A DNA stretch of 28,127 nucleotides from a virus. The DNA is taken from positions 1-28,127 of the IMG/VR virus record IMGVR_UViG_3300037264_000873; one strand, 5' to 3'. Each line of letters begins with the position of its first letter. Position 1 is the first letter of the stretch. Below are positions 7,765 to 27,723 of the stretch, one piece after another. The notes beneath the pieces were generated by a model. The model saw nothing but the letters and a program-made list of their open reading frames with translations. It did not search any database and was not told the origin of the DNA. The translations under genes were made by a program, and so were the position numbers.

Positions 7765-7989
7765 ATGACCCTTGACGAGCTTCGGGCGAAGCTCGATGAG
7801 CTTGGCATCCCCCATGACACCTGGGGAGCTGCGGGGGGAAGGACTGTCCAGCCGCCTCGGATCGAGAAGTACAAGGAACTCCTGGTCAAGATCCGAACCC
7901 TTCTTGAAGGGCAGGTTGGGAAGGACAAGGACAAACTCTCCGAGCTGCACGAGGTCTTGATGCGTGCAAAGCACGGGGGAGGTGCCTAG
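7765..7989 (+). CDS. Small charged helical protein, unknown function
   Basis: This is a 74-residue protein rich in Lys, Glu, Leu and Asp, with N-terminal MTLDELRAKLDEL and a Lys-rich helical C-terminal half. There are no cysteines, signal peptide or membrane segment. It lies in the structural block, and its TAG (7987-7989) overlaps the GTG start of the next gene by one base, so the two are probably translationally coupled. The ATG at 7765 has no ribosome site near it. The only good one, AGGAG at 7733-7737, is 27 bases upstream and is well placed for an in-frame CTG at 7744, which would add seven residues (reading MSFDPST if initiated with Met). The true start is therefore uncertain. Function is not recognised; a small virion or assembly protein is possible. 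Confidence 0.65.
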   Translation: MTLDELRAKLDELGIPHDTWGAAGGRTVQPPRIEKYKELLVKIRTLLEGQVGKDKDKLSELHEVLMRAKHGGGA

Positions 7990-10523
7990 TGGCCACCGGG
8001 AGTTGGACCATAGTTCAGCCGGGTATCCCGGACGTGTTCACGGATGTGATCGAAACGATCCAGTCCCTTCTGAACGCCCTGCTCGCCATCCTCAACATCA
8101 TTCTGGCCGTCCTCCAGATCGTGAAGGCGTTCATCGCAGGGCTCTTGAACCCCCTTGATGCCTTGATCAACGCCATCATCGCGGAGATCGAGGCTCTGCT
8201 GAACGACATTCGGCAGATCGGCATCTACATCTCGGGGGATTTGGAACTAGACCCCCCCGATTTCAGCGACATCATCGGTGGGTACACGGCCTACGAGCGG
8301 CGGATGATCGGACGCCTCGTGAACCGGCAGGACCCAACCCGTCCGGCGTTCACCTCACGGTCCGCCGTCATTGCCATCTTCATCTACGTCTCGGTGGACA
8401 TTTCGGGCCTCGCTCAACTCATTAAGATCATCCAGGCAATACTCGCGTTCTTCGGCCAGCGAGTCGACATGCGGGTGACTTCGGTGCCTGTCTCCCTTCA
8501 GGTCACCTACGGCGTGGAAGGAGCCCCACTCTCGGCATTCAAGCAACTCACGGGAGCCCTGCGTGAGGGTGAGGTTCCGAACCAAGCCAACCTCCGATGG
8601 GTCATGGCTCCCACGAGCCAGGCGGCACGGTTCATGGCCCCTGGACCCAAGGGATTCCTCATCGAGGTCTCCACGTTGCGTGATGGATTGTTCCTGGCCT
8701 ATGACACCTATGCAGCAAACACCCCAGTGGGGCCAGGGATCAACACTCGCCGTCAAGGACTGATTCGTGACCCTCGAACGGGACTGCCCTTCCGGCTCTA
8801 CGGTGGTCCCGACCTGATCGACGTTGGTGACTTGATGAATGCCCCCTTCAAGGAGGACGTGGACGGCACGAACCGGGTGACCAGACTCTACGCCTACCGA
8901 GACTCCTCCGACAACAACCCCATCCCCATTGGGGCAATGCTAGACGGGGAAAAATACCTGCTGCAAAGGGCTTTCTTTGTGAAGGCAGGGTTCCTCAATG
9001 TGGCTGCTCCTGGACAGGGGTTTGCGGCAACCCTGGCTCATGAGGACATGCCTTGGGAAGCTGATTTTGAGGTTCAGGGGGATGGGAAGGTCAAGGGAAC
9101 TGCTCACGGAGATTCTCCAGCAACCACGGTGTATGTCAGGATCTCCCAAGTGACGGAAACCATTGTGGATGAGGTTGTAACCACTGGGGGGCAGGGAAAG
9201 ACCGGGGCGTTGACTGCACCCTTGATCCTCTGGGAAACAACTGCAAATGACGTATCAACCAAGGCAGAACGGCCTGGGACTGTTCTCTTGACAACCGGCC
9301 TCAACTTCAATGTTGGGGACAAGGGCTTGCCGAGTGAGCCTCTCGAAGTCACGTTCCCGGCCACTTCAACCTTGGACTACATCAACGCAATCACGGCCGC
9401 TTTGGCCGTCCTCGTGCTTGCCCGTTGTGACCTCCCTGTGGCTGCTGGGGAGGCCGTTTTTGCGGACGGGCAGGCAGCCGCCGCTACGGGTCTGGAGGAG
9501 GTGGGTCGCTTCCTCATCCCCCAACTGATCAAGGAAAACAGGGCCACCTACTATGGCAAGCTGAGTGTTGCCCCTGAAGACTTCAGGCGTAACCTACGAC
9601 GTAGGTGCCGCGTTTTCGCGAACTACATCTACCGAACGACCGGACCTATGGGGGAGTTGGAGAAGACCGTGGTGGAGCTTGCTAAACCCCTGCTGGAGTT
9701 CAAGTGGTCAACGCAGAGTGGCCTCCCTGACCTCACGATTCTGGAGTCGCTCGAAGCCTCCAACGTCGACTCGGGCATCGCCCTCAACCCCTTGTGTCTG
9801 GGGCGCAACGACAGGGCTACGCGAGCCTTGTACCGGGCTGAAATTGGCCCCAAGCCAGCTCGGGCACCCTTCTTCAGGGAAAAGAAGGTTGTCCTGAAGG
9901 TCGGGTGGTTGGAGGGGCAGGGGTCTGCCGACATGTCCCCTGTTATTTACTCACTCCCAATCCCCCATCAGGTGTCCTTCTGCCGTAACGTCATCACCAG
10001 TGAGGTGTACGGTTCGGCAGCCGCCGTGCTGAATGTGGCGGCTTGTGTGGTCACCCTCCAACGGAACAAGTCAGGGGACTGGAAGGCATTTCGGTTGTTC
10101 CCACAAGGTCTCCCACCGATTGAGGCCCTTCTGGACGAGATCCTTCGCTGGGTCAAGGCCATCCAGGCCGGGATCAAGGGGTTCGTGGACATCATCATCG
10201 CCTACATCAACTTTCTTCAGGCCCGCATCCTGGAACTCCAGGCGTTGATTGTTCGGATCAACGGCCTGCTCGACGCCTTGACGGGCTTCAATCTGCCAGC
10301 GATGTCAGCACTCATCGTCACAGCCAACGGGACCGATGGCATCCTGCAGGCACTCATCTCTGCCGACAACAAGCCGTCGGACTCCACAGCCTCGGAAGAT
10401 CTCGAAGTGGGTGACTCCGAAATAACCTTTGGCACCTACGGGGCCGGGGTGGTGCTTCTCGCTGGTGGGCTTCCAACGGTCCTCGCCGAACTCCTGGCCT
10501 CACTATTCCCGGAGGCTGAGTAG
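7989..10523 (+). CDS. Putative tail/baseplate structural protein with terminal amphipathic helices
   Basis: The product has 844 residues. GTG 7989 overlaps the previous stop (TAGTG) and is preceded by a strong GGGGGAGGT site. Residues ~18-85 form a long Leu/Ile/Ala-rich helical stretch containing short breaks and charged residues. Residues ~711-770 form a second similar stretch (for example IEALLDEILRWVKAIQAGIK). Between them lies a mixed alpha/beta body. These segments could be amphipathic helices or membrane-interacting; they are less uniformly hydrophobic than typical spanning segments. No enzymatic motif is recognised. The coding sequence around 8930-9320 looks less GC-rich than its surroundings. 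The next gene starts directly after the stop. Position between the giant structural gene and the baseplate wedge gene suggests a virion protein, but family membership is not established. Confidence 0.75.
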   Translation: MATGSWTIVQPGIPDVFTDVIETIQSLLNALLAILNIILAVLQIVKAFIAGLLNPLDALINAIIAEIEALLNDIRQIGIYISGDLELDPPDFSDIIGGYTAYERRMIGRLVNRQDPTRPAFTSRSAVIAIFIYVSVDISGLAQLIKIIQAILAFFGQRVDMRVTSVPVSLQVTYGVEGAPLSAFKQLTGALREGEVPNQANLRWVMAPTSQAARFMAPGPKGFLIEVSTLRDGLFLAYDTYAANTPVGPGINTRRQGLIRDPRTGLPFRLYGGPDLIDVGDLMNAPFKEDVDGTNRVTRLYAYRDSSDNNPIPIGAMLDGEKYLLQRAFFVKAGFLNVAAPGQGFAATLAHEDMPWEADFEVQGDGKVKGTAHGDSPATTVYVRISQVTETIVDEVVTTGGQGKTGALTAPLILWETTANDVSTKAERPGTVLLTTGLNFNVGDKGLPSEPLEVTFPATSTLDYINAITAALAVLVLARCDLPVAAGEAVFADGQAAAATGLEEVGRFLIPQLIKENRATYYGKLSVAPEDFRRNLRRRCRVFANYIYRTTGPMGELEKTVVELAKPLLEFKWSTQSGLPDLTILESLEASNVDSGIALNPLCLGRNDRATRALYRAEIGPKPARAPFFREKKVVLKVGWLEGQGSADMSPVIYSLPIPHQVSFCRNVITSEVYGSAAAVLNVAACVVTLQRNKSGDWKAFRLFPQGLPPIEALLDEILRWVKAIQAGIKGFVDIIIAYINFLQARILELQALIVRINGLLDALTGFNLPAMSALIVTANGTDGILQALISADNKPSDSTASEDLEVGDSEITFGTYGAGVVLLAGGLPTVLAELLASLFPEAE

Positions 10524-13425: not shown

Positions 13426-16400
13426 ATGGCAACCACTCCCACCATCACGGGTCCTGACGGCGTAGAACGCACACTGTTGCGGTTCAGCACGACGCTGCAG
13501 AGCCGCTTCTTCACCGGGACCATCGGTGCCGACACGGTGGATGTCGAGGTGTCGATCCGGGGGGGAGGATTCACCAACGATGCAGACCTCGTGGTGTTCG
13601 AGGGGACCATCTGGACAGTTCCGAACCCAGCCGCCTTCCCTGATGGTCTGGATCTTCTTCCCGGGAGGAACAGCATCCAGGTCCGTTCAGTGGATGCTTC
13701 GGGTTCCGTGTCGGCTCCTGCCGAAGCTGTCGTGACCTTGGTGCAAGAGGCCGACATCGGGATCGTGGCTGCTCCTCCCACCAACATCTCGGTCACGCAG
13801 CTCGACGGGAAGATCCGCATCGACGTGGAGGGCCTCGATGACGAGGGCTTCCAAGGGTTCAACTTCTATGCCTCGATCGATGAGGGTGGGGGAAACTCGG
13901 GCTACCGCCGCATCAACCTCGAAACGGTCAGTGAGGGCACGACCACGGAGGAGCTATCCCCCATCTCCACCATCGAGACGGACTCCGGTGTCGTCGTGGA
14001 CATCAATGGTGACCCGGTGGCAGACCCCCTGTTCTTCCGAGTCACAGGACAGCAGGAAGATGAAGACCTCACCGTCATCCAGTTGGACCTGAACGAGCGA
14101 GTTGCGATTGCAGAGACCGTGAGGGAGATCCGGACTACCATCACCATCGAGTCTGTCCGTGAGATCCAGACCTTTGGCTTTGACCACAACCGACTGGCTG
14201 GCCCAAACAGTGACCCTGCAACCATCTCCAACAGCACGTTTGCAGCCCTATCGGCGGAGGAACTCCTCTACTACGTCGTGACCGCGGTGTTCTTTGATGC
14301 CCTGGCCAACGTCGAGTTCGAGTCCTCCTTCTCCCAGGAGGTCGTGGCTCAACCCCTCCGCATCACCGCCACCTTGGGCTCGTTCCCCACAGTGAGCCGT
14401 CAGGCTCTCGTTCGGGACTTCATCACCTCGGTCTTCCGGTCGAACCCACAGATTCGCGTCGAAGAAGGGGCCACGCTCCGTGAAACGGTCATCGACCCCC
14501 ACTCCTCCGAGACAGAGAGGCTCCGGTTCATTCTCGACTTCCTGCACCGAGCCCGGTCACCAACCCAGCTCCTCACCATCGACGACCCCACGGGCTCCGG
14601 GACTTCAATCTCCGTGACAACTTCGGCCTACAAGCAGGCGTTGAAGAAGGCGTTCCTGCTGACCAACAACGCGGATGTCCAGGCGTTGATCGACTCGGCC
14701 ATCGAGTCCTACGCCTCGAACTTCGGCGTGTTCCGTCGGCCTGGGCGGTCCGCTCAAGGTGAGGTGACCTTCTTCACGAGATCACGGCCGACACGCACGT
14801 TGCAGTTCCCCTTGGGGACGGTGGTGGCAGGCGGCAGCCGGACGTACCGGACAACGAGAGCCGCGTCTATCCCGCTGAACCAGATCGCCTCCTTCTTCGA
14901 CCCAGTCTCGGGCCGGTTCCAGGTCACGGTCCCAGTCAAGGCCGCCACCGTTGGGTCGGCGGGGAACGTGGGGGCTGGACAGGTCCGATCCATCTCCTCG
15001 GCTGTCTCGGGGGTTTCGGTTACGAACTCGGCTGCGATGTTCGGGGGACAGGACCAGGAAACCAACCATCAGCTCGTGGAACGTGCCCGTAACCGGCTCG
15101 CATCGGTCGATGCCGGTACGGCTCGTGGCTATCTCCAAACGGCGGCAGATGTCCCCGGCGTCGTCAAGGCCAACGTGGTGCAGGCCGGACACCCCCTCAT
15201 GCAGCGGGACCTCGACGAGGATGGGGTCCATCGGGGTGGAAAGGTTGATGTGTGGGTCATCGGGGAGAACGTGGCGACGGTCACCGACTCATTTGCGTTC
15301 ACCTTCGAGATCGCCCAGGACGTGCAGTTCGTTCTGGTCTCGACTCCGGCCGACTTGGAGTTCCGAGCCATTGACCCGAACCTGTCGTCCGAGAACCCCA
15401 TCGTCGAGATGCTCGACTTCCCAGAGGCCGGCTATGAGTTCCGCAACGCCTCGACCGGCCAGGTGTTCGATCTGACTGGGGTGACGATCACCTCGTTCGA
15501 TACGATCAGGCTCTCGGCCGACGTGGTGCAGCCCCCAGTTGACCTCACAGATGTCGTGCTCGGGTCATACCGGAGGCGGGTTGGCACCGTCTTCGTGTTC
15601 CCCAGACAGCCAGTGTCGGAGGTCACGGCTGTCACCGGTGTTGTGTCGGGGGTGTTGCCGGCGACATCCTTTGCCCTACACCACCCGGACCCGCCCTTGG
15701 AGAAGGGTCGGTCCTCCTTGGCTGGGGACTTCCTGGAGATCGTTCCGTTCGAGGACACAGACGGGAACATGGTCCCTTCTGGGGAGCTGATCACGGTAGA
15801 GGACGAGTCACACGTCCTCATCGGTGAGTTCCCCGAGTTCGTGGACAGCTTGGGTGCGGTGTTCCTGACGATCGTGGTCACGAACGAGGATGGGACCATC
15901 ACCTACAAGGGGCCGAACGACCCCTCTGGAGACCCTGACTACACCATCATCCTCGGCGACCAGACCACGGCCTTGTCCATCAAGCGGATCGAGGGTGGTG
16001 ACATCGCTTCAGGGCAGACGGTCCTCATCTCCTACAGTCACGACGAGAACTTCACGGTGACCTACCTGACGAACCTGGTCATCTCAGTCACGCAGGACGC
16101 GATTGAGGTTCGGCGTCATGCCACGGCCGATGTGATCGTCAAGGAGGCCGTCCCAGTCCCCCTAGAACTGCAGGCCACGATCGTCCTCAACAAGGGCAAG
16201 GACCAGTCGGACGTGGACCCAGCACTCCGAACGAACATCGAGAACTTCCTCACCAACCTCCGGCTTGGGGACCCCTCCCGGCAGTCGGACATCATCAACA
16301 TCATCGAGAACACCTCGGGGGTCTCCTACGTCGTCGTCCCGATCACGAAGATGGTGCGGGGCGAAGGTTCCCAGGTCGTTCGTGAGGATCTGACCACGGA

Positions 16401-16878
16401 CCTGGCTGCCGAGATCGTCCTTCTGGTGGAGCTGTCAACGGAATCGGTGCTTGTGTGGCTCATCAAGGAGAAGCTGGACGCCGCCACCACGAACGGTGGG
16501 GGGTCTACGACCGAGTTCCGTGGGGTCGTTCAGGACGACGTGTTTCTCGACCTCCTCGGAGCAAATGCCCTGCTGACATCGCTTGGGATCGTGGCCGGCC
16601 GGACCTACATCATCGGGGCGGAAGGGGCCTCCATTCCCGGCTACAGCGATGATGTCACCCTGGGGTCGCTCAGCTCTGAGCAAAAGCTCCAGACCCGGAA
16701 GGATCTCACGGGGAACCGGGTCCTTGTCTCCACCCCACCATCAGACTCCCCAGTGAACCACAACTACGCCGTCACCTACATCGTAGGGGCAGACTCGGGA
16801 GCCAAGGACATCAACCCTGGGGATGCCGAGTACCTGGTGGTAGGCAACTTCCTGTTCACCTATGACCAGGAGCAGTAG
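13426..16878 (+). CDS. Baseplate J-like protein
   Basis: The product has 1,150 residues. ATG 13426 lies two bases after the previous stop with no clear ribosome site, implying coupling. Residues ~116-190 look like a fibronectin-type beta sandwich. The Baseplate_J signature is at residues ~539-590: a GGQDQETNHQLVERARNRL segment followed by Gly-Thr-containing GTARGYLQTA and a V-x-x-A-N-V-V strand. J-like proteins form the wedge core of contractile tail baseplates and control sheath triggering. The protein is much larger than P2 gpJ (about 300 residues), with extra beta-rich modules after residue 640 that repeat a short 'ITYKGPNDPSGDPDY' type strand-turn pattern. The neighbours (gp25-like upstream, another baseplate-type protein downstream) fit the usual baseplate gene order. 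Confidence 0.85.
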   Translation: MATTPTITGPDGVERTLLRFSTTLQSRFFTGTIGADTVDVEVSIRGGGFTNDADLVVFEGTIWTVPNPAAFPDGLDLLPGRNSIQVRSVDASGSVSAPAEAVVTLVQEADIGIVAAPPTNISVTQLDGKIRIDVEGLDDEGFQGFNFYASIDEGGGNSGYRRINLETVSEGTTTEELSPISTIETDSGVVVDINGDPVADPLFFRVTGQQEDEDLTVIQLDLNERVAIAETVREIRTTITIESVREIQTFGFDHNRLAGPNSDPATISNSTFAALSAEELLYYVVTAVFFDALANVEFESSFSQEVVAQPLRITATLGSFPTVSRQALVRDFITSVFRSNPQIRVEEGATLRETVIDPHSSETERLRFILDFLHRARSPTQLLTIDDPTGSGTSISVTTSAYKQALKKAFLLTNNADVQALIDSAIESYASNFGVFRRPGRSAQGEVTFFTRSRPTRTLQFPLGTVVAGGSRTYRTTRAASIPLNQIASFFDPVSGRFQVTVPVKAATVGSAGNVGAGQVRSISSAVSGVSVTNSAAMFGGQDQETNHQLVERARNRLASVDAGTARGYLQTAADVPGVVKANVVQAGHPLMQRDLDEDGVHRGGKVDVWVIGENVATVTDSFAFTFEIAQDVQFVLVSTPADLEFRAIDPNLSSENPIVEMLDFPEAGYEFRNASTGQVFDLTGVTITSFDTIRLSADVVQPPVDLTDVVLGSYRRRVGTVFVFPRQPVSEVTAVTGVVSGVLPATSFALHHPDPPLEKGRSSLAGDFLEIVPFEDTDGNMVPSGELITVEDESHVLIGEFPEFVDSLGAVFLTIVVTNEDGTITYKGPNDPSGDPDYTIILGDQTTALSIKRIEGGDIASGQTVLISYSHDENFTVTYLTNLVISVTQDAIEVRRHATADVIVKEAVPVPLELQATIVLNKGKDQSDVDPALRTNIENFLTNLRLGDPSRQSDIINIIENTSGVSYVVVPITKMVRGEGSQVVREDLTTDLAAEIVLLVELSTESVLVWLIKEKLDAATTNGGGSTTEFRGVVQDDVFLDLLGANALLTSLGIVAGRTYIIGAEGASIPGYSDDVTLGSLSSEQKLQTRKDLTGNRVLVSTPPSDSPVNHNYAVTYIVGADSGAKDINPGDAEYLVVGNFLFTYDQEQ

Positions 16879-18224: not shown

Positions 18225-18808
18225 ACCAGCCTCCGGGTAAGCCCGGCCCGCTGCATCAGGGTCGGACCATCGTAGGCTTCCCCTCCGAAGTAGTCCCCGA
18301 CCTTGTGCTGCTTGCGGAAGGCTTCCATGGTGGCCGTGTGGCGTTCCACCCACGCCTGGTAGGTCGGCTGGAACATCATGGGAGCCGGGTTTGCAGCCCG
18401 CCATGCGTCGCAATCGGCCTTGAACGCAGCCGACCTGGCCTCCCCCTCGGAGCGGAGACGCGAGGAGTAGTTGGCGACAGTGCCCTCGAGTCCAGGGCGG
18501 AGGATGGAAGCCGGGGCGTTCCAGAGCTGATGCTGGGGCACCATCGGGCTGGAGAACCCACCGCCCTTCTTGAAGGTGACGGCGACGTAGATGCCGTAAG
18601 GGGACTCCTTGACCTCCCACCGAGGCTCCTCGAAGGGGGCCCGCTCACCAAAGCAGAGGGGCACCTCGACCACGGGCGGGTTGACGTTGACGCACTGGGG
18701 ACAGCAGAACTGAACCCAGGTGTGGCGGTCATCACCCTGGTTCCGGAGGAATACCGCCTTGTCCTTGTCCGAAGCCTCGAAACCGCAGTTGTAGCATCGC
18801 AGGGCCAT
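18212..18808 (-). CDS. Zinc-ribbon-like protein, unknown function
   Basis: The product has 198 residues. On the minus strand, ATG at 18808-18806 has a GGGGGAG site three bases upstream. The N-terminus carries a clear four-cysteine ribbon: C5-x2-C8 and C36-x2-C39 (with an extra C35), in the context LRCYNCGF and CCPQC, which should bind one zinc. The remaining ~150 residues are hydrophilic with Trp- and Tyr-containing stretches and no recognised motif. It lies 51 bases downstream of the glycosylase gene on the same strand, so the two may share a transcript. Function is not recognised; nucleic-acid or protein binding is the usual role of such ribbons. The conserved start and strong ribosome site support a real gene. 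Confidence 0.75.
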   Translation of the reverse strand: MALRCYNCGFEASDKDKAVFLRNQGDDRHTWVQFCCPQCVNVNPPVVEVPLCFGERAPFEEPRWEVKESPYGIYVAVTFKKGGGFSSPMVPQHQLWNAPASILRPGLEGTVANYSSRLRSEGEARSAAFKADCDAWRAANPAPMMFQPTYQAWVERHTATMEAFRKQHKVGDYFGGEAYDGPTLMQRAGLTRRLVRVA

Positions 18809-18859
18809 GTTCTCCCCCGTTCTTACAGGTACTACGCGGGAATGGCCCCGATGGACCCC

Positions 18860-20467
18860 CTAATCCCCAGAAGCGATGCGGATGGCCTTCCCCAGATCCG
18901 AGATGACCATCAATGCAGCTTCTTTCGCCTTCTTCGGCTCGTTTCGGTTGTGGAGGATGTAGGAGGGGTGGTAGGTCACGATGACGGGGCACGCGAAGTG
19001 GGTGGTGCCGTTCTGGTAGAGCCAGTCTTGTCGTCGGAGCGACCCAACGGCAGCAGTTGCCTGTTCCCCGGTTAGGTACCGGCCGGCCACCCCGCCGAGG
19101 GCGACGATGACCCTCGGATGGATGATGGCGAGTTGAAGGTGGAGGAACGGTGAGCAGGCGGCCAGCTCATCGGGTTCAGGGGTGCGGTTGTCCGGTGGTC
19201 GGCAGTTTGACACAACAAACCCATTTGCGGTATACCACCCTTCCGAAGTCTCCAAGGTGTACACATGGGTACGAAGTTCGATCTGTTGGACGCGGGAGAT
19301 GCGGTCAGCCTGTATCTCGGGGGGTGGACTCTTGAGGATATCGGGGCGGCACTCGGAGCTTCGGCCCTCACCGTCAAGCATTTCCTGCATAGTAGGGATG
19401 TGCCCTTGAGAACTCGGGGGGAATCCCAACGTCTCTCGGGACGAAGGGGGCGGATCGTCCTGGCTCCAGAGCTGGTGGTGCCGGCCTACTTGGATGGGGT
19501 CTCCATCCAAAGGCTGTCGCAAACGCTTGGATGCCATGAACGGGTGGTGCAGCGGACTTTGGTTCAAGCCGGTGTAAGCCTCCGCGGTCGGGGTGCTGCC
19601 AACCGCAAACGCCTGGAGGCCATGACTGCTGAAAACCTGAGAGAGCTGACTCGCGAGGCTCGTTTGGTGTCCTTGGCCAAGGGGGTGTTGTGGACGAGCG
19701 AGGCTGTGGCCAAGCGGAAACAGACTCGGGCACGGCACATCCACCACAACCCGGAAGGGGTTGTGGGACGAGGCGAAGGGTTCATGGAAGGTCTTCTTCT
19801 GGCTAGGGGGTTGGTGCCAGTGCCTCAACTCCCGGTCCAGGGCTACAATATCGATCTGGCCCTGGTTCCCGTCGCCGTGGAAATCCATGTCGCTACCAGC
19901 AACCCGTTGACTGACCCCCGCCGCCTTCAACGTGCGATAGATCTCCTTGAGTGGGGCTGGCATGTGTTCTATGTGTGGGTCACACAGGCCCATTTTTTGG
20001 GGGCGGGGGCAGCGGAGAAGGTGTTGGCCTTCTACCAGAAGGTGCAGGGGAACCATGCCCTGCCGTGTGAGTACAGGGTGGTTAGGGGTTCCGGTCAACT
20101 TGTGGCCGGCGGCGGTCTCCACAAGAACACCCGGACCCTCATACCATCGCCGGTAGACGCGCTGTACTGAGCGGGCATCCACTATGGTTTCCCCTGGGAA
20201 ACACTTCACGGTGTTCAGGATGTAGACCTCGCTCCGCCGAAGGTTGACTCGGCCGAGGAGGTCATCGAGGAGCCGTCCGGCTGGACCCGTGAAGGGCTCC
20301 CCAGATCGGTTATCATCTTCGCCAGGAGCTTCCCCAGCAAGAACGATGGCAGCTCCAGGGTCCCCCACCCCGAACACCAGCCGGTTCCGGCCATGGTGAA
20401 GGGGGCATCGGGTGCATCCTTCGGCTCGGGTTGTTCGGAGGTGGTCGAGGCGGTCGCTGGCAGACAC
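18860..20467 (-). CDS. Uracil-DNA glycosylase (family 4 type) interrupted by an intein
   Basis: The precursor has 535 residues from GTG 20467 (weak ribosome site). Removing the intein (residues 89-421) leaves a 202-residue glycosylase, the usual size for family 4. These enzymes excise uracil from DNA and carry a 4Fe-4S cluster. Visible motifs are C18-x2-C21 (cluster ligands), GEAPGE at 45-50 followed by the GEPFTGPAG loop at 56-64, C422 in NCRPPDNRTPEPDE and C438 (remaining ligands), and TYHPS at 498-502 (motif 2). The intein sits between Lys88 and Cys422, directly before a cluster ligand, so the mature enzyme can only form after splicing. The gene is on the opposite strand to the structural genes and upstream of the zinc-ribbon gene. 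Family 5 is a less likely alternative, since the active-site loop fits family 4 better. Confidence 0.9.
   Translation of the reverse strand: MSASDRLDHLRTTRAEGCTRCPLHHGRNRLVFGVGDPGAAIVLAGEAPGEDDNRSGEPFTGPAGRLLDDLLGRVNLRRSEVYILNTVKCFPGETIVDARSVQRVYRRWYEGPGVLVETAAGHKLTGTPNHPVLTRQGMVPLHLLVEGQHLLRCPRPQKMGLCDPHIEHMPAPLKEIYRTLKAAGVSQRVAGSDMDFHGDGNQGQIDIVALDRELRHWHQPPSQKKTFHEPFASSHNPFRVVVDVPCPSLFPLGHSLARPQHPLGQGHQTSLASQLSQVFSSHGLQAFAVGSTPTAEAYTGLNQSPLHHPFMASKRLRQPLDGDPIQVGRHHQLWSQDDPPPSSRETLGFPPSSQGHIPTMQEMLDGEGRSSECRPDILKSPPPEIQADRISRVQQIELRTHVYTLETSEGWYTANGFVVSNCRPPDNRTPEPDELAACSPFLHLQLAIIHPRVIVALGGVAGRYLTGEQATAAVGSLRRQDWLYQNGTTHFACPVIVTYHPSYILHNRNEPKKAKEAALMVISDLGKAIRIASGD
19205..20203 (-). mobile_element. 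Intein in the glycosylase, with antisense endonuclease insert
   Basis: The intein spans 333 residues, from Cys89 to Asn421 of the precursor. Block A is CFPGETIV at its start. Block B is GHKLTGTPNHPVLT (residues 121-134), with the conserved Thr and His. Block F is HVYTLETSEGWYTANG (401-416). Block G is VVSN followed by Cys+1. The penultimate residue is Ser instead of the common His, and the usual block F His is replaced by Trp/Tyr; both variants occur in active inteins. No LAGLIDADG or HNH motif lies in this frame. Instead, residues ~142-400 are low-complexity-looking, Pro/His/Ser/Gln-rich sequence that is the codon-aligned complement of a separate plus-strand gene (19265-20170). The splicing parts therefore amount to only about 110 residues. 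Confidence 0.85.
19265..20170 (+). CDS. Vsr-like (EDxHD-type) homing endonuclease nested antisense in the intein
   Basis: The product has 301 residues. ATG 19265 has AAGGTG (19254-19259) five bases upstream. Residues ~11-46 and ~70-105 are two helix-turn-helix segments of the kind used by phage homing enzymes (WTLEDIGAALGASALTVKHF and VSIQRLSQTLGCHERVVQRT). Residues ~175-240 form the nuclease core: E175, then YNID with D197, strand VAVEIHV with E206 and H208, then an R-rich helix and a WHVFYVWV strand. This matches the Vsr-related endonucleases found near split inteins and in phage introns (I-Bth0305I family). It would cut intein-free glycosylase alleles so the intein can spread. The last ~40 residues overlap intein block B on the other strand and may be dispensable. 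The whole gene lies inside the intein, in the same triplet register as the intein frame. Confidence 0.8.
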   Translation: MGTKFDLLDAGDAVSLYLGGWTLEDIGAALGASALTVKHFLHSRDVPLRTRGESQRLSGRRGRIVLAPELVVPAYLDGVSIQRLSQTLGCHERVVQRTLVQAGVSLRGRGAANRKRLEAMTAENLRELTREARLVSLAKGVLWTSEAVAKRKQTRARHIHHNPEGVVGRGEGFMEGLLLARGLVPVPQLPVQGYNIDLALVPVAVEIHVATSNPLTDPRRLQRAIDLLEWGWHVFYVWVTQAHFLGAGAAEKVLAFYQKVQGNHALPCEYRVVRGSGQLVAGGGLHKNTRTLIPSPVDALY

Positions 20468-20512
20468 AACTTCGACCTACCCGACCGGGCTGTTTCCAAG
20501 GCCCCCTGTGAG

Positions 20513-20586
20513 GCGGTGGCTTCCCTATAGCCAGAACCCAGGTAGAGCCCCTCGGAGGAAGCTGGATGGCCGCCAGGATCAGGAGC
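20513..20586 (+). repeat. Duplicated leader of tailspike genes, copy 1
   Basis: This 74-base stretch covers GCGGTGGC, CCTATAG, GTAGAGCCC, a ribosome site and the first seven codons (ATGGCCGCC then two differing codons and AGGAGC). It is collinear and equal in length with 24611-24684, indicating that regulatory and coding parts were duplicated together. Confidence 0.7.
20524..20547 (+). promoter_or_regulatory. Bipartite CCTATA-N12-GTAGAG motif
   Basis: CCTATA at 20524-20529 and GTAGAG at 20542-20547 lie in the 98-base divergent gap between the minus-strand glycosylase and the plus-strand tailspike gene. GGAGGA at 20554-20559 then precedes ATG 20566. This is one of the two best copies of the recurring signal. 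Confidence 0.5.
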
Positions 20587-23500
20587 CTGCGGAACGCACT
20601 GTTCCCCCTCGATGAGGTCAGTCGTGACGACCTCATCATCGGGGACATCGTTACCGTGGCCGCTCTCGACGCGGCCACCACCTACGCTTGGACCTTGACC
20701 TTTGCCCCCGAGGGCTCGACAGCCACGTTCTCGGGCAACCCGGCTGCGGTCTCCCCTGGCTCCTTCACAGTGGACTTGGAGGGGTCGTACCTGGTCCGCC
20801 TCGTGGTGGACGCCGCTCTCCCTTCCGAGGACGTGCAGTACGTCCGACTCCGGGCTCTGACCGTCTTCGGGCAACTCCACCTCATCGCCGCTGGGGAGCG
20901 GCGAGACGAAACGGGAGTCATCCCAGTCGATGTGGACACAGAGGGGTGGGCGAACGAGCAGAACGCGAACCTGCTGACCCTCCTGAACTTCGTCAAGCCC
21001 CTCGTCTCCTCGGGGCGAGTGTTCTACGTTGACGCCAACGACGGGACGGAGAACTACGCCGACTACGACACCATCCAGGAAGCCATTGACGCGGCCGTAG
21101 CCCAAACCCCCACCGACGCCTCCCAGTGGGTCATCCTGGTCCGGCCGGGCCGCTACATCGAGAACCTCACCCTCGCCCCCTTCGTCCATGTGCTCGGGTG
21201 GCCGGGGAACCCTGATGGGCAGGTCTCCGAGGCTGTGGTCGTTGAAGGAACACACACGGCCACCACAACGGCCACGGCCCAGCAGCTCCTCCTGGCGAAC
21301 CTCCACATCGAGAACAACGCGAACACACCAGTCCACACCCTCGGAAAGGCCGGGGACGGGACGCTGAGGGTCTACGCCTGCCGGATCGAGTCCAATGGCA
21401 CCCATGCCTCCCAAGGAGCTGCCCTCTCTCTGACCGGCGGGACCGTCGATGTCATCCGGTCCACCCTCATTCACAACTCGGCCGGGGCGGCAACACGGTC
21501 GGCATACCGCCAGGCCGGGGCATCCACCGTCGGGATTTTCCAGGACTGCGTCATCTCAGGCCCCAGCGGGCTGAGCGTCAACCCCGCAGGTTCCTTGGCT
21601 ACGGGCCTCACCTGCCAGGTCTACAACTCCAAAATCTTCGCGACCCATGCTTCGGGCACCGGCATCTCCTCGATGGCCGAGGAGATGAACGTCCAGAACT
21701 GCGACATCGAGACGGCAGGAGGTACCTCGGTCGCAGTCAACCCCACATCCGTTGCGTTCGCCGGGGATGTGGAGCTGGAGATCAGGTTCTCCAGGTTGTC
21801 CGGGGGCATCCTCTATGACATCACAGGGTTGACTGGGGCGGATGACCTGAAGCTCGGGTCTGTCATCTACACGGCCACGACGTTCCCTGGTGGATCGCCA
21901 ACCTACGAGGCCCTCACCAAGGCGAAGACCGTCTTCTACGACAACACCGCCTCGGGGCTCACGGCCGAGAACGTCCAGGACGCCATCGACGAGGTGGCCG
22001 CCCTCGCCGCCATCGCCCCGGTCGTCTACCACAAGAACATGCCGGAGATCCCGAACGACACCGTCAGGTACCGGGGCTGGGCACCCATCGCTTGTGAGCT
22101 GATCGGCGTCCGGGTCTACATGCAGACGGTCAACTCCGTGGGGACGTACACCCTCACGGTGACCAACAACGCCACGGGGAACACGGTACTCTCGGCAGCC
22201 TCGTTCAACATGAACACGTTGGTGGCCGCCACGGTGACCCCAGTGGGTCTGACGGGGGTGGCTGCCGATCTACTCTTTGCGACGCTCGACCGGTGGACCA
22301 TTGCCCTGACCTCGAACAACCCCGGGTTCAATGGGGAAGGCATCTACGTCGAGTTGGTGTTCAACCCGGCGACAGGTGGTGGGCCGATTGTTGAAGACCT
22401 GGCCACGACCCTGCTCATCGGGAACATCACGGGTGGCACCGACATCGAGCTGACCACGGGCGATGAGATCGTTGGCCAGACCGACGTGGTCCTGCGGTCA
22501 ACCGGAGCAGCCAGCGACATCGAGATGTTCCCAGGAGCCGCCGGAGCGGTCATCGTCAACGGGAAACTCACCGTCACTGGCATCATCGACCCGACGGCAG
22601 TGGTGTTCGATCAGGCATCGGTTCCGACAACAGGGGCAACGGAAGGTGGGTTGTTCGTCTCCAATGGGACGGGCGGGCTCGATCTCGGCAACCTCTACTT
22701 CCGGCCAGCGAGCAGTGGGTCATCCATCCGGGTGTCGCATCTCGGGATCGAGCGGACCCTTCTCCACCGTCTCCAGTTTGAGGCTTCGACGGTCGGGAAC
22801 ATCCTTCCGGCTGCGATCTTCTTCTTCGATCCGACCCTTGCCACCACCAACCCCTCCAATGGGGACATCCTCGTCCTCAACGACGGGTTCAACCCGGCCG
22901 AGACCTTCACCTTCAAGACCGTGCCCGCTGGGGCCTTCGATGTTGGGATCAACGCAGGGGATGTGAAGATTACCCTGACCAATCTCGCGACAGCCATCGA
23001 GACGGACAGTGCCAGGTTCCGGGCCGTGAAGGTCATCGACCTCACCCGCATCCACACCAACACCGCTGTCCGCGGCCACGCGGTCATCATCGTCTGCCGG
23101 ATCAATGCAACGCCCGGGGTGCCCCGTATTTACGGGACTTTTGCGGTTCCGCTGACAAGTCGTCCTCGGAGGTCTGGGTTCACATCAAGTGACCTTCGCT
23201 ACAACGTAGATGATACGATCACACTCACCCTTCCCACGGCGGACCCAGGAGTCCGCCAATCGTTCGGGTACGAGCAGGTAGGCTTCTCGGCCCTGTCCAA
23301 TGGGCAGGTCAGGGTCACGGCTTCGGAGCCGGCCCTCTACACACGGCAGCTCGTATCCCCGACCTCGGGCGTCAACTGGATTCCCGTCGGTCCAGCGGTG
23401 GAGCAGTACGGGACCGGGGTGGCCGTTTCCCCAGGGAACACGGTCACCAACTTCTTCTTCGTTCCGAGGAACGTCACCATCGTTGGCATCAAGGTCTATG

Positions 23501-23757
23501 CCCACACCGTCCCGGTGACCGCTGGAACCTACACCCTGGCGGTGGATGCCGACGGAAGTGGCATCCTCTCGGCAGCGACGTTCGACCTGACTTCGCTGTC
23601 AGCGGCAGTGCTCACGTCTGTGTCGCTCACGGCGACAACGAGCCTCCTCAATCGTCTCACAGGGTCACGCATTCGGTTCAGCTTCGCCAGTAACAACGGA
23701 GATCTCACGGCGAGCGGGATGCACATCCAAATCCTCTATCGGTCCCGAACCTTGTAG
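20566..23757 (+). CDS. Beta-helix tailspike/tail fibre protein 1
   Basis: The product has 1,063 residues, ATG with GGAGGA six bases upstream. Residues ~22-98 look like a PKD/Ig-type sandwich (YAWTLTFAPEGSTATFSG). Residues ~151-445 form a pectin-lyase-type right-handed beta-helix: YVDANDG, then YDTIQEAIDAA, WVILVRPGRY and repeated short coils with Asn and Gly turns. A linker motif YDNTASGLTAENVQDAIDE is at ~457-475. Two copies of a ~115-residue jelly-roll-like domain follow, at ~486-600 and ~945-1062 (compare GTYTLTVTNNATGNTVLSAA with GTYTLAVDADGSGILSAA). Such proteins bind and may cleave host surface glycans; no catalytic residues can be assigned. The protein is paralogous to that encoded at 24664 over the N-terminal half and in shorter later segments. 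Confidence 0.85.
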   Translation: MAARIRSLRNALFPLDEVSRDDLIIGDIVTVAALDAATTYAWTLTFAPEGSTATFSGNPAAVSPGSFTVDLEGSYLVRLVVDAALPSEDVQYVRLRALTVFGQLHLIAAGERRDETGVIPVDVDTEGWANEQNANLLTLLNFVKPLVSSGRVFYVDANDGTENYADYDTIQEAIDAAVAQTPTDASQWVILVRPGRYIENLTLAPFVHVLGWPGNPDGQVSEAVVVEGTHTATTTATAQQLLLANLHIENNANTPVHTLGKAGDGTLRVYACRIESNGTHASQGAALSLTGGTVDVIRSTLIHNSAGAATRSAYRQAGASTVGIFQDCVISGPSGLSVNPAGSLATGLTCQVYNSKIFATHASGTGISSMAEEMNVQNCDIETAGGTSVAVNPTSVAFAGDVELEIRFSRLSGGILYDITGLTGADDLKLGSVIYTATTFPGGSPTYEALTKAKTVFYDNTASGLTAENVQDAIDEVAALAAIAPVVYHKNMPEIPNDTVRYRGWAPIACELIGVRVYMQTVNSVGTYTLTVTNNATGNTVLSAASFNMNTLVAATVTPVGLTGVAADLLFATLDRWTIALTSNNPGFNGEGIYVELVFNPATGGGPIVEDLATTLLIGNITGGTDIELTTGDEIVGQTDVVLRSTGAASDIEMFPGAAGAVIVNGKLTVTGIIDPTAVVFDQASVPTTGATEGGLFVSNGTGGLDLGNLYFRPASSGSSIRVSHLGIERTLLHRLQFEASTVGNILPAAIFFFDPTLATTNPSNGDILVLNDGFNPAETFTFKTVPAGAFDVGINAGDVKITLTNLATAIETDSARFRAVKVIDLTRIHTNTAVRGHAVIIVCRINATPGVPRIYGTFAVPLTSRPRRSGFTSSDLRYNVDDTITLTLPTADPGVRQSFGYEQVGFSALSNGQVRVTASEPALYTRQLVSPTSGVNWIPVGPAVEQYGTGVAVSPGNTVTNFFFVPRNVTIVGIKVYAHTVPVTAGTYTLAVDADGSGILSAATFDLTSLSAAVLTSVSLTATTSLLNRLTGSRIRFSFASNNGDLTASGMHIQILYRSRTL
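21934..21993 (+). repeat. Conserved linker repeat of tailspike genes, copy 1
   Basis: Sixty bases that match 26077-26136 at 55 positions, encoding the YDNTASGLTAENVQDAIDE linker. It is the best conserved DNA shared by the two paralogues that I found. Confidence 0.8.
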
Positions 23758-24610: not shown

Positions 24611-24684
24611 GCGGTGGCCGTCCTATAGCAGCAAGGGTGTAGAGCCCTTCCCGGAGAGGATGGATGGCCGCCATCATCAGGAGC
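24611..24684 (+). repeat. Duplicated leader of tailspike genes, copy 2
   Basis: Counterpart of 20513-20586, of equal length. Shared blocks are GCGGTGGC, CCTATAGC, GTAGAGCCC, a GGAG-type ribosome site and ATGGCCGCC with nearby ATCAGGAGC. Confidence 0.7.
24622..24644 (+). promoter_or_regulatory. Bipartite CCTATA-N11-GTAGAG motif
   Basis: CCTATA at 24622-24627 and GTAGAG at 24639-24644 lie in the 65-base gap before the second tailspike gene. The ribosome site GGAGAGGA (24653-24660) follows. The spacing is one base shorter than in the first tailspike copy. Confidence 0.5.
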
Positions 24685-27600
24685 ACCGTGTCGCCGGTAG
24701 CCCACCCCGTAACGGGTGTGGCTCGGGGCACGGTGAACGGGGCGAGCCGAGACGACCTCTACGTCGGCGATGCAGTCACCCTCTTGTCCGTGAACACGGC
24801 GGGCACCTACGCCTGGACCCTGGCCTACCGTCCACCTGGGTCAACGGCTGCCTTCTCGGGAAGTGCCCTCGCCCAGTCCCCCGGCTTCATCACCGTGGAC
24901 CGGGAAGGGCCGTACCTGATCCGGCTCACGGTGGACCTGGGCCAACCCACCGAGAGCACCCAGTTCGTCAGGCTCCGGTACCTCACCGACTTCGGCCAAC
25001 TCCGCCTTGTGTCTGCGGGTGAGCAGAACAACAGCGGCATCCCAGTCCCCGTTGATCAGAGTGCCCAGGGGTGGGCGGATGCCCAGAACACCAACCTCAC
25101 CACCCTGCTTGGGCTCATCGCCAAGGTCTCGACCTCGGGTCGGGTTCTCTACGTTGACCAGAACGGTTCCTCGACGGACACCATCCTCGGGTACGCCGAC
25201 TTCGACAACATCCAAGACGCCATCGACGAGGCCGTCTCGAACGGGCCCACGTTGGCAGAACCCTGGGTCGTCCTCGTCCGGCCAGGCCTCTACACCGAAG
25301 ACCTGGCCTTCGCCCCCCACGTCCACGTCTATGGGTGGCCTGGCACACCCGAGGGGGATGATCAGAACCGGGTTGCCCGCATCCGTAGCGACACGGCCTT
25401 CCATACGGCTGCCTTGGCGGGCGTGACCGACCATGTGTTCCTGGCGAACCTCACCTTCGAGCACCCCATCAACGGCACAGACCCCGCCATCGTGAAGTCT
25501 GGGGTGGGCAGTCTCCACATCTACCGCTGTGCGATCACCAACCAGGGCTCCTCGGCGAGTCAGGGTCCGGCACTTCGGGTGACCGCTGGGTTCGTCGAGG
25601 TCATCGGGAGTCAGCTCCTCCTCAACCCTGGGGCGGGTACCGACCGTCCGGCACTTCGGGTTCTCGGGTCAACAACGACGGTGGAACTCACCGACACGGT
25701 CGTCACAGGTCCAACTGGGGCCATCTTCGAGATCGGCTCGACCGTCACTGCTCGGGACACCCGGTTCAATGGAACCGCCGGAGCAGGAGCGGCGGCCAGC
25801 ATCATCTCGGACGCCTTGGCACTGACGCTGGACTACTGCACCGTCCGAGCACCCCTCGTCGTGAACCCCCTCCGGGTCCACCCATCGGCAGCCGCTCTCA
25901 TCGGGTCCGTGGCCCTCACGATGCGATGGACCTATGTGGACGGCGGCATCCTGTATGACACCACGGGGGTCACGGGAACGACCACCCTCCTCCTGGGGTC
26001 GTGCGAGTACTCGACCCTATCCTTCCCAGGAGGCTCCCCAACCACCTTCGCAGCCACTACGAAGGCCGCGACCCTGTTCTACGACAACACCGTCTCGGGC
26101 CTGACCGCCGAGAACGTCCAGGATGCCATCGACGAGCTGCAAGTCCTCGCCACAGCCGTCCGTACCCTCGATGATGCTTACGATGCGGGTGGTGGTGGGC
26201 CAGGCACAGGTCGGGACATCATCGCCGATGCGGGGGCCGTCCGAATCCTGGATGCTGCGGCTCCTTCCGAACCTGTCCCACCATCGAACACGGACGGACG
26301 GCTTCAGGTGGTCGGGAACGTGGAGGTGGGGTCCATTGGGAAGCCCGAGATCGATCTCGACCCGAATCCATTCGGCGGTGGTCCATTGGTCCGGCTCGGC
26401 CGACTCATCCAGGCCAACAACACCCCCTGGGGCTCCACGGCTTTCATCCTTGGCCAGTCAACGGGAGCACCGGACCACAACAACTACAACCTCCGGGTCC
26501 AGACCGAGTCCTCCTTCACCGGCGGTCGGATTGGTCGTCTCACCCTCCGAGGAGGTGATGGCCTTGCCAATGGCGTCACGACCCCGTTGCCTGGTCCGAT
26601 CTACGTCCAGGCGGGCTCCGCCCAGGCAGGACCGAACGACGGGGCAGATGTGTTCCTCGTTCCTGGCGATGGTCTCGGGGCTGGGGGTGTGGGCTCCCTC
26701 ATCCTCGTTCGCCCCCAGAACGCCACACCTGCAACGCTGACGGCTGGTGGAGCCTTCGTGGGTGGCGTCGCCGGAACCATCCGGTTCGCCATCGACATGG
26801 TGGCCATCGAGGTCGCCATTCTGGCTGGGGACACCCTGGTGGCGGTCCTCGCGAAGTTCGATGCCACGGGTCATGTGACTGCTGCCCATGTCCTCGGCGT
26901 CATCACCCTCACCACGGTTGCCACGGGAGAGAACGCCGAGATCCACTTCCTCAACGACACCGTTGGAGGCAGCCTAGACACGGCCCTCGGCGGCTTCGAT
27001 GGTCAGTCCCAAGTGGACGGCACATGGCCCTCGACCATCGCGATTCGGGTCACTGGGACCAATGAGATCAGCATCGGGGTCGGTGGAGCCACGGGGCCCC
27101 TGGTCTACAACTCGGACACGGGCAAGCTGACCGTCCCGGGGATCATCGACCCGATTGGTCTCGTGCTCGACCAGACCGTTCCACTCGTGGCCGATCCTGG
27201 CAAGGGGGTCATCTTCATCGGCGATGGGACCGGGGGAACGATCGTCGGGAACTTCTACTATCGGTTCGGGGGAGGGGCTCTCCAGGACATCTCGGCCGTT
27301 GTGGGTGGCTCAACGGGGTTCACCGTCAAGGACGAGGGCACCACCGTTCCCAACGGGCCTTTCACGATCCTCAACTTCACCGGATCAGGGGTTGTGGCTG
27401 CGGATGCAGGGGGTGGTCAGGTCAATGTGACCATTACTAGTGCGGGGGGTGTCCAAGGGGTAGCCCAGGAGATGTTCAACGCCTCTGCCTTCACCTTCGG
27501 TGGAGGCGTCTCCTCGGTGGCCTTGGGCAGCACCTTGAACACCGCCGCCGCCGTCCAAGGGTTGATCCTCCTCGCCCGGAATGGACTGCTGGACATGGTC

Positions 27601-27723
27601 AACGTCGGTCCGGCACTCCCAACAACTGCGGACCAATACCGCCTCTCCGGGGGCAACCTGCAAATCGGAACGGACATCACGACATCGAGCAACGCCTACC
27701 GGGTTGTCTACCCGACGCCGTGA
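24664..27723 (+). CDS. Beta-helix tailspike/tail fibre protein 2
   Basis: The product has 1,019 residues, ATG after GGAGAGGA. It is paralogous to the spike at 20566: a PKD/Ig-like sandwich at ~36-110 (YAWTLAYRPPGSTAAFSG), a pectin-lyase-type beta-helix at ~158-455 (YADFDNIQDAIDEA, WVVLVRPGLYTEDLAF), and the linker YDNTVSGLTAENVQDAIDE at ~472-490. The C-terminal half differs more. It has a shared TGKLTVPGIIDPIGLVLDQ segment near ~820, then a GFTVKDEGTTVPNGPF to LNFTGSGV strand pair common in phage fibre proteins (~883-920). A distinct final domain of ~80 residues probably contacts the receptor. It lacks the duplicated jelly-roll domain of paralogue 1. Two spikes with a common base and different tips suggest a branched or dual-specificity adsorption apparatus. 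Confidence 0.85.
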   Translation: MAAIIRSTVSPVAHPVTGVARGTVNGASRDDLYVGDAVTLLSVNTAGTYAWTLAYRPPGSTAAFSGSALAQSPGFITVDREGPYLIRLTVDLGQPTESTQFVRLRYLTDFGQLRLVSAGEQNNSGIPVPVDQSAQGWADAQNTNLTTLLGLIAKVSTSGRVLYVDQNGSSTDTILGYADFDNIQDAIDEAVSNGPTLAEPWVVLVRPGLYTEDLAFAPHVHVYGWPGTPEGDDQNRVARIRSDTAFHTAALAGVTDHVFLANLTFEHPINGTDPAIVKSGVGSLHIYRCAITNQGSSASQGPALRVTAGFVEVIGSQLLLNPGAGTDRPALRVLGSTTTVELTDTVVTGPTGAIFEIGSTVTARDTRFNGTAGAGAAASIISDALALTLDYCTVRAPLVVNPLRVHPSAAALIGSVALTMRWTYVDGGILYDTTGVTGTTTLLLGSCEYSTLSFPGGSPTTFAATTKAATLFYDNTVSGLTAENVQDAIDELQVLATAVRTLDDAYDAGGGGPGTGRDIIADAGAVRILDAAAPSEPVPPSNTDGRLQVVGNVEVGSIGKPEIDLDPNPFGGGPLVRLGRLIQANNTPWGSTAFILGQSTGAPDHNNYNLRVQTESSFTGGRIGRLTLRGGDGLANGVTTPLPGPIYVQAGSAQAGPNDGADVFLVPGDGLGAGGVGSLILVRPQNATPATLTAGGAFVGGVAGTIRFAIDMVAIEVAILAGDTLVAVLAKFDATGHVTAAHVLGVITLTTVATGENAEIHFLNDTVGGSLDTALGGFDGQSQVDGTWPSTIAIRVTGTNEISIGVGGATGPLVYNSDTGKLTVPGIIDPIGLVLDQTVPLVADPGKGVIFIGDGTGGTIVGNFYYRFGGGALQDISAVVGGSTGFTVKDEGTTVPNGPFTILNFTGSGVVAADAGGGQVNVTITSAGGVQGVAQEMFNASAFTFGGGVSSVALGSTLNTAAAVQGLILLARNGLLDMVNVGPALPTTADQYRLSGGNLQIGTDITTSSNAYRVVYPTP
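26077..26136 (+). repeat. Conserved linker repeat of tailspike genes, copy 2
   Basis: Matches 21934-21993 at 55 of 60 bases, with 16- and 17-base perfect blocks. It encodes the linker between the beta-helix and the C-terminal domains. Confidence 0.8.

Follow-up and report, generated by a model that had tools for sequence, protein, structure and literature searches.

Cases of long antisense overlap with conservation of both encoded proteins are few and contested. Dassa et al. (2009) reportedly described fractured genes with split inteins, in which a free-standing Vsr-like endonuclease gene lies between the two halves. In inteins, an in-frame endonuclease domain at a conserved insertion site is the rule (PMC6801210). 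Phage methylases without inteins carry out-of-frame HNH genes on the same strand (PMC11855218), and the nuclear group I introns Dsq.L2066 and Dir.S956-2 carry antisense His-Cys endonuclease genes (PMC9548176). An endonuclease encoded antisense within an unbroken intein, of which an earlier note on the present locus had known no described example, has no precedent that we found in open-access PMC papers, an absence that is not proof.

Here we analyzed a 28,127-nucleotide stretch of viral DNA (IMG/VR record IMGVR_UViG_3300037264_000873; the window), in which a uracil-DNA glycosylase (UDG) gene is interrupted by an intein. The analysis is computational and draws on coding and selection on both strands, predicted folds, the start signal, distribution, and empty and occupied sites. 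With high confidence, we interpret the locus as a mobile splicing intein with a free-standing Vsr-like homing endonuclease encoded antisense within it. We also consider it probable, with somewhat less assurance, that the locus represents a large class of viral inteins that bear their homing endonuclease on the other strand, with ~90% of the intein coding for protein in both directions, and in which splicing and nuclease motifs share codons. Antisense transcription, splicing, cleavage and homing are what we infer from these data.

The interrupted UDG gene and the gene on its opposite strand

The minus strand encodes, at 18860..20467, a family 4 UDG precursor of 535 amino acids with a GTG start (TIGR00758, 1e-46; PF03167, 4.6e-33). 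The match to UDG_fam4 (TIGR00758) falls in two pieces. The N-extein (20204..20467, minus; precursor residues 1-88) ends in NTVK and the C-extein (18863..19204, minus; residues 422-535) starts with CRPPDNR, while the spliced extein sequence aligns with phage UDGs as single pieces. Between the exteins lies an intein of 333 amino acids (19205..20203, minus), which runs from Cys1 to Asn333 and is followed by Cys+1.

The intein ends proposed in the earlier note are borne out by TIGR01445 (intein_Nterm), which matches above its cut-off, and by a profile search in which the window intein matches intein structures. A search of the whole window with PF14890 (Intein_splicing) gives no match, the long insert probably preventing one; the window's match to PF14890 is under the curated cut-off, and 66/67 family members are matched. 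The splicing residues C1, TPNH, N333 and C+1 are present in the window, and across the family Cys1 is retained in 91/95 members, TPNH in 87/95, the terminal Asn in 91/92 and Cys+1 in 90/92. In block B (HKLTGTPNHPVLT; 20066..20104, minus), N41 and H42 are invariant in 67/67 members. The penultimate His is replaced by Ser in the window and is absent in 41/92 scored members, a point that we counted against a splicing intein. The AlphaFold model of the sense protein, which resembles the RadA and RecA inteins, has a Hint fold at both intein ends (pLDDT 92-98); most of the stretch ~128-290 is disordered (pLDDT 33-50 in the middle). The sense frame is unbroken in the window and in the relatives read, i.e. 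the intein is neither split nor fractured.

Opposite the intein, the plus-strand gene at 19265..20170 starts with ATG and encodes 301 amino acids followed by TGA. Both reading frames are as first described, with the same triplets read in exactly coincident register: plus codon 1 pairs with the sense codon for His401, and the plus stop lies opposite sense codon 100. The antisense nesting claimed in the earlier note therefore stands, but the ~266 residues that it gave are too few. The overlap comprises 301 codons (sense residues 101-401), or ~90% of the intein, and the plus frame extends across the complement of block B and of part of block A as well. Its last ~35 codons, antisense to block B, encode conserved C-terminal strands of the nuclease fold. 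At the other end, the complement of blocks F and G (HVYTLETSEGWYTANGFVVSN; 19205..19267, minus) includes the start codon of the plus gene and, 5′ of it, a Shine-Dalgarno-like AAGGTG (19254..19259, plus). No sigma-70-like promoter is recognised in 18800-20600, which counts against our interpretation.

Two helix-turn-helix (HTH) segments and a Vsr-like core had been read from the plus-strand product, and the AlphaFold model agrees. It was built from 67 alignment rows (the window and IMG/VR sequences) and shows tandem HTH units and an alpha/beta nuclease, with a mean pLDDT of 86. The first HTH covers residues 10-43 (19292..19393, plus; helices 10-18, 23-30 and 34-43), and the second, seen both in the model and as an HTH_58 match (3.7e-8, residues 55-114), covers residues 68-101 (19466..19567, plus). 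The Vsr-like nuclease domain, residues 169-284 (19769..20116, plus), was delimited using VIA-align and conservation. In VIA-align, the nearest solved folds are Vsr (1cw0, Z 11.6) and I-Bth0305I (3r3p, Z 11.4). I-Bth0305I is also ranked first by Foldseek against the PDB, but with weak E-values (best 0.029), and a profile search with the antisense protein matches 3r3p and 3hrl (1.2e-6 for 3hrl).

The conserved acidic residues of a Vsr-like PD-(D/E)xK nuclease are present (D197 and E206 in 67/67 members, E171 in 65/67). Y194 and A204 are likewise invariant, and Q188, N195 and R223 nearly so. Pfam MTES_1575 is matched by 42/67 members, the window protein itself reaching only 0.017. Fold and conservation point to a nuclease of the Vsr-like, MTES_1575/DUF559 type. 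The EDxHD signature, including a conserved His, is what we take to be the mark of I-Bth0305I-type homing endonucleases. Position 208, a possible counterpart of the His of the EDxHD motif, is His in 22/67 members and so is not conserved in the family; the suggested Vsr-like kinship holds for the fold. Neither frame, in profile searches with the window and the family, gives an above-cut-off match to nucleases of the LAGLIDADG or HNH type. In 14/14 annotated GenBank records of occupied loci, the antisense gene is without annotation.

Distribution, host genes and empty sites

Inteins of this group are carried by 126 phage records, >200 IMG/VR stretches and 6 genome contigs. In tblastn, the sense intein finds 126 phage records and the antisense protein 121; where the lists are comparable, the two sets of hits coincide in position and lie on opposite strands. 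The IMG/VR and GTDB scans used alignments of closer subsets of the family. The IMG/VR profile scans matched 217, 45 and 205 stretches, of which 80, 45 and 80, respectively, were kept, and the GTDB scan matched 7 contigs. Single-protein scans of viral contigs gave 0 and 1 loci.

The first 15 relatives, with ~20-30% protein identity and 42-68% GC, all have an antisense ORF of ~230-300 codons in the same register. A search using the Hint domain only retrieved 80 loci, and the antisense gene is found in every one. It is present in all fetched members of the group except one mini-intein (L088), locus L146 being a different intein outside the group. This distribution suggests a conserved class of inteins and not a lone oddity.

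The mini-intein of L088 (3001-3498) has 166 amino acids and retains the FHGD motif, with the antisense gene reduced to a remnant; it is likely the decayed end of a homing cycle. Three metagenomic loci (L056, L179 and L184) have either a frameshift or one stop codon in the antisense frame and are possibly pseudogenes or assembly errors.

The host genes include those for MuF or minor capsid proteins, TerL, UDG, dCMP deaminase and RtcB, among others. The UDG insertion site is homologous in the window, L105 and L016. In L016 (439-4713) and L041 (1859-5263), UDG and a family A DNA polymerase form a single open frame, with the intein within the UDG part. RtcB is otherwise known as a host gene of other inteins, and in L037 (2164-4212) an RtcB RNA ligase is interrupted by an intein of this class. 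One MuF-like gene, in L001, has two different inteins ~75 codons apart (2764-3687 and 3916-4833), each bearing its own antisense endonuclease gene.

The window UDG (18860-20467) is matched by PHROG 15127, ‘head protein’ (4.7e-33). The match spans the intein including its middle and is best over the intein (residues 87-234), and PHROG annotation would thus label a DNA-repair gene a head protein. Elsewhere in the window, 13426-16878 encodes a Baseplate J-like protein, while none of the families searched was matched by the large flanking ORFs 7989-10523 and 24664-27723 in Pfam, or 35-7708 and 20566-23757 in PHROGs.

Of the relatives that the earlier note had suggested looking for, there are some without the intein, namely intein-free phage UDGs, and one with only a remnant of the insert (the mini-intein). 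In P. aeruginosa phages BR313c and JBD44, the same site is occupied and empty, respectively, between flanks that are 94-97% identical, and the BR313c intein has a clean junction between AAC and TGC. In Gordonia phages Angelicage and Sedona, one site with 96% identical flanks holds very different inteins, one having been swapped for another that is ~25% identical (allele replacement), and the site is empty in Fitzgerald. Among Salmonella phages, SETP7 is empty at the site occupied in Ijeoma. Such exact empty sites in near-identical phages point to mobility. In the endonuclease tree, TerL copies and deaminase copies each form one clade, a grouping consistent with fidelity to site and occasional jumps. 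Three loci from Gordonia Vividuovirus (L005, L013 and L148) have a common MuF site, which is empty in many phages and filled by divergent inteins in others.

The alternative that survives best, although we regard it as improbable, is that a genuine antisense protein has lost its homing function and binds DNA to regulate the host gene, or acts as an antisense-transcript device. Tandem HTH domains would suit such a role, and a virion gene could be regulated by a gene on its opposite strand. However, a regulator leaves unexplained the strict invariance of Tyr194, Asp197, Ala204 and Glu206, the exactness of the empty sites, the replacement of one intein by a distant one, and the pairing with inteins across a wide range of unrelated genes.

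Coding and selection on the two strands

Since the codons of both strands coincide, every substitution can be classified by its effect on both proteins. We analyzed 8 pairs of relatives in this manner, distinguishing the middle region, block B and the exteins. In the middle, the nonsynonymous ratio is 0.36 (0.31-0.41) for the antisense and 0.78 (0.68-0.89) for the sense frame, and it is antisense position 3 that evolves fastest. The exteins of these genes give 0.48 for the sense and 1.10 (0.99-1.19) for the antisense frame, the pattern expected where only one strand codes. Block B has low ratios on both strands (sense 0.11, antisense 0.36). The substitution pattern thus argues for purifying selection on the antisense frame with a near-neutral sense frame in the middle, and for the reverse in the exteins.

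On the sense strand, a His codon CAT is an antisense ATG. The block F His, opposite which the endonuclease start had been placed, is CAT in 65 members and CAC in 14, compared to 245 and 535 in the exteins (p 1e-18). Similarly, the block F Leu is CTC or CTT in 74/86 members, compared to 1364/3382 (40%) in the exteins (p 6e-18), and the complement of these codons is the GAG or AAG of the antisense ribosome site. Both elements proposed in the earlier note, the ATG complementary to His401 and the AAGGTG opposite block F, are seen in the window, with codon bias there throughout the family. This bias suggests that the start signal opposite block F is under selection.

The active-site strand of the nuclease is also shared. 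Its A-V-E is the complement of sense F-H-G, and in the window V203-A-V-E-I207 lies opposite the sense motif DFHGD (intein residues 107-111; 19871..19885, minus). Glu206 is encoded by GAA in 61 members and GAG in 6, whereas the family overall favours GAG, and Ala204 is encoded by GCC in 66/67 members. These codon choices imply that sense FHGD is constrained too, so that the motif appears to be constrained on both strands and the sense middle would not be a wholly passive linker. The earlier idea of an antisense-encoded linker thus fits the mostly disordered middle but not FHGD. At E171, by comparison, the codons are GAA in 33 members and GAG in 32, and the opposite sense residue is Phe or Leu: it drifts while the nuclease keeps its Glu. 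A second enzyme in the sense middle was considered and ruled out, this region being disordered and near-neutral apart from FHGD.

It is very unlikely that only the antisense nuclease codes and that the sense frame is an open, non-splicing insertion whose host proteins are dead or insert-bearing. The disorder and near-neutral ratio of the sense middle would fit such an insertion, but the retention of Cys1, TPNH, the terminal Asn and Cys+1 across the family, the low sense ratio of block B and the matches to intein profiles and the Hint fold would not. Moreover, the exteins are under purifying selection, and many of them are needed virion genes.

At the window GC of 62%, an open antisense frame has a probability of ~0.07 when the sense protein and the codon usage of the region are taken as fixed, and the converse probability is ~0.15. 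Among 301-codon stretches of the other window genes, 55/271 are also open in that antisense register. Taken by itself, the window gives no significance to the double opening, which could be chance; we rejected window-only significance as evidence, and the case beyond chance is made by comparison with relatives. From block B to block F, 94/95 non-redundant loci are without an antisense stop, the stop-free stretches being ~140-280 codons long (mostly 200-275), against 114/509 control extein windows open in the matched antisense register. The summed log10 P for the 95 loci, given the sense proteins and extein codon usage, is -265, a figure that is only indicative since the relatives are not fully independent. 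Even so, the median end branch of the endonuclease tree is 0.77 changes per site, and the antisense register is identical in 146/146 loci, window included. Least credible of the three alternatives is that only the intein codes and the antisense ORF arises by chance from high GC and from codon choices that avoid TTA, CTA and TCA, which would be compatible with the window figures but not with open relatives that include phages of 42-50% GC, an antisense ratio far lower in the middle than in the exteins, a selected ATG and ribosome site, and a confidently modelled protein that matches nuclease families.

A probable mobile intein and its relation to known systems

The central proposal of the earlier note, a free-standing opposite-strand endonuclease that leaves the intein frame unbroken, is sustained by relatives, substitutions, structure, start codons and empty sites. 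In the mechanism that we propose for this mobile intein, the minus strand would yield the UDG precursor, from which the Hint domain formed by both ends of the intein would excise itself and join the UDG halves at NTVK|CRPP. The complementary plus strand would yield a separate protein of two HTH units and a Vsr-like PD-(D/E)xK nuclease, its translation starting from the ATG and ribosome site opposite block F. The nuclease may then cleave the insertion site in host-gene alleles that lack the intein, and repair would copy the entire intein along with the nested gene. The sense frame would need to stay open, splice and retain FHGD, the remaining middle serving as a disordered linker.

Hundreds of divergent copies keep the register, the start signal and the shared motifs, which opens the evolution of double coding to direct measurement. 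Intein biology gains an architecture in which mobility is supplied from the opposite strand. If this is true, a likely benefit would be that expression of the endonuclease is freed from the timing of a late host gene, and loss of the selfish gene would seldom leave the host protein intact. Phage annotation overlooks the antisense gene and mislabels hosts, as with UDG under a ‘head protein’ PHROG, and the group is a source of numerous new candidates for site-specific nucleases and for inteins.

The architecture is a large, unannotated new variation on mobile inteins. With canonical mobile inteins (PI-SceI, TliVMA), the window intein shares the Hint domain, blocks A, B, F and G, Cys1 and Asn/Cys+1, an endonuclease region between blocks B and F, and the invasion of conserved sites. 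In the canonical elements, however, the endonuclease is an in-frame LAGLIDADG or HNH domain, whereas here it is a separate Vsr-like protein from the opposite strand and the sense middle is disordered. Fractured split-intein loci likewise have a free-standing Vsr-like nuclease at the endonuclease position of the intein, but in them both the intein and its host gene are divided, while the window intein frame is intact through the antisense gene. I-Bth0305I and the EDxHD enzymes share the Vsr-like fold, the conserved acidic residues (E171, D197 and E206 here) and separate DNA-binding modules; I-Bth0305I is intron-borne, whereas the window nuclease is nested in an intein and belongs to a family with His 208 in only some members. 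The HNH genes of phage methylases are also hidden endonucleases that overlap an open host-gene frame, but on the same strand in a different frame and without an intein or splicing domain. Finally, Dsq.L2066 and Dir.S956-2 also have an endonuclease gene opposite in orientation to a self-splicing host element, but a group I intron acts as RNA and need not be translated, whereas in the window both strands are protein-coding over ~300 codons.
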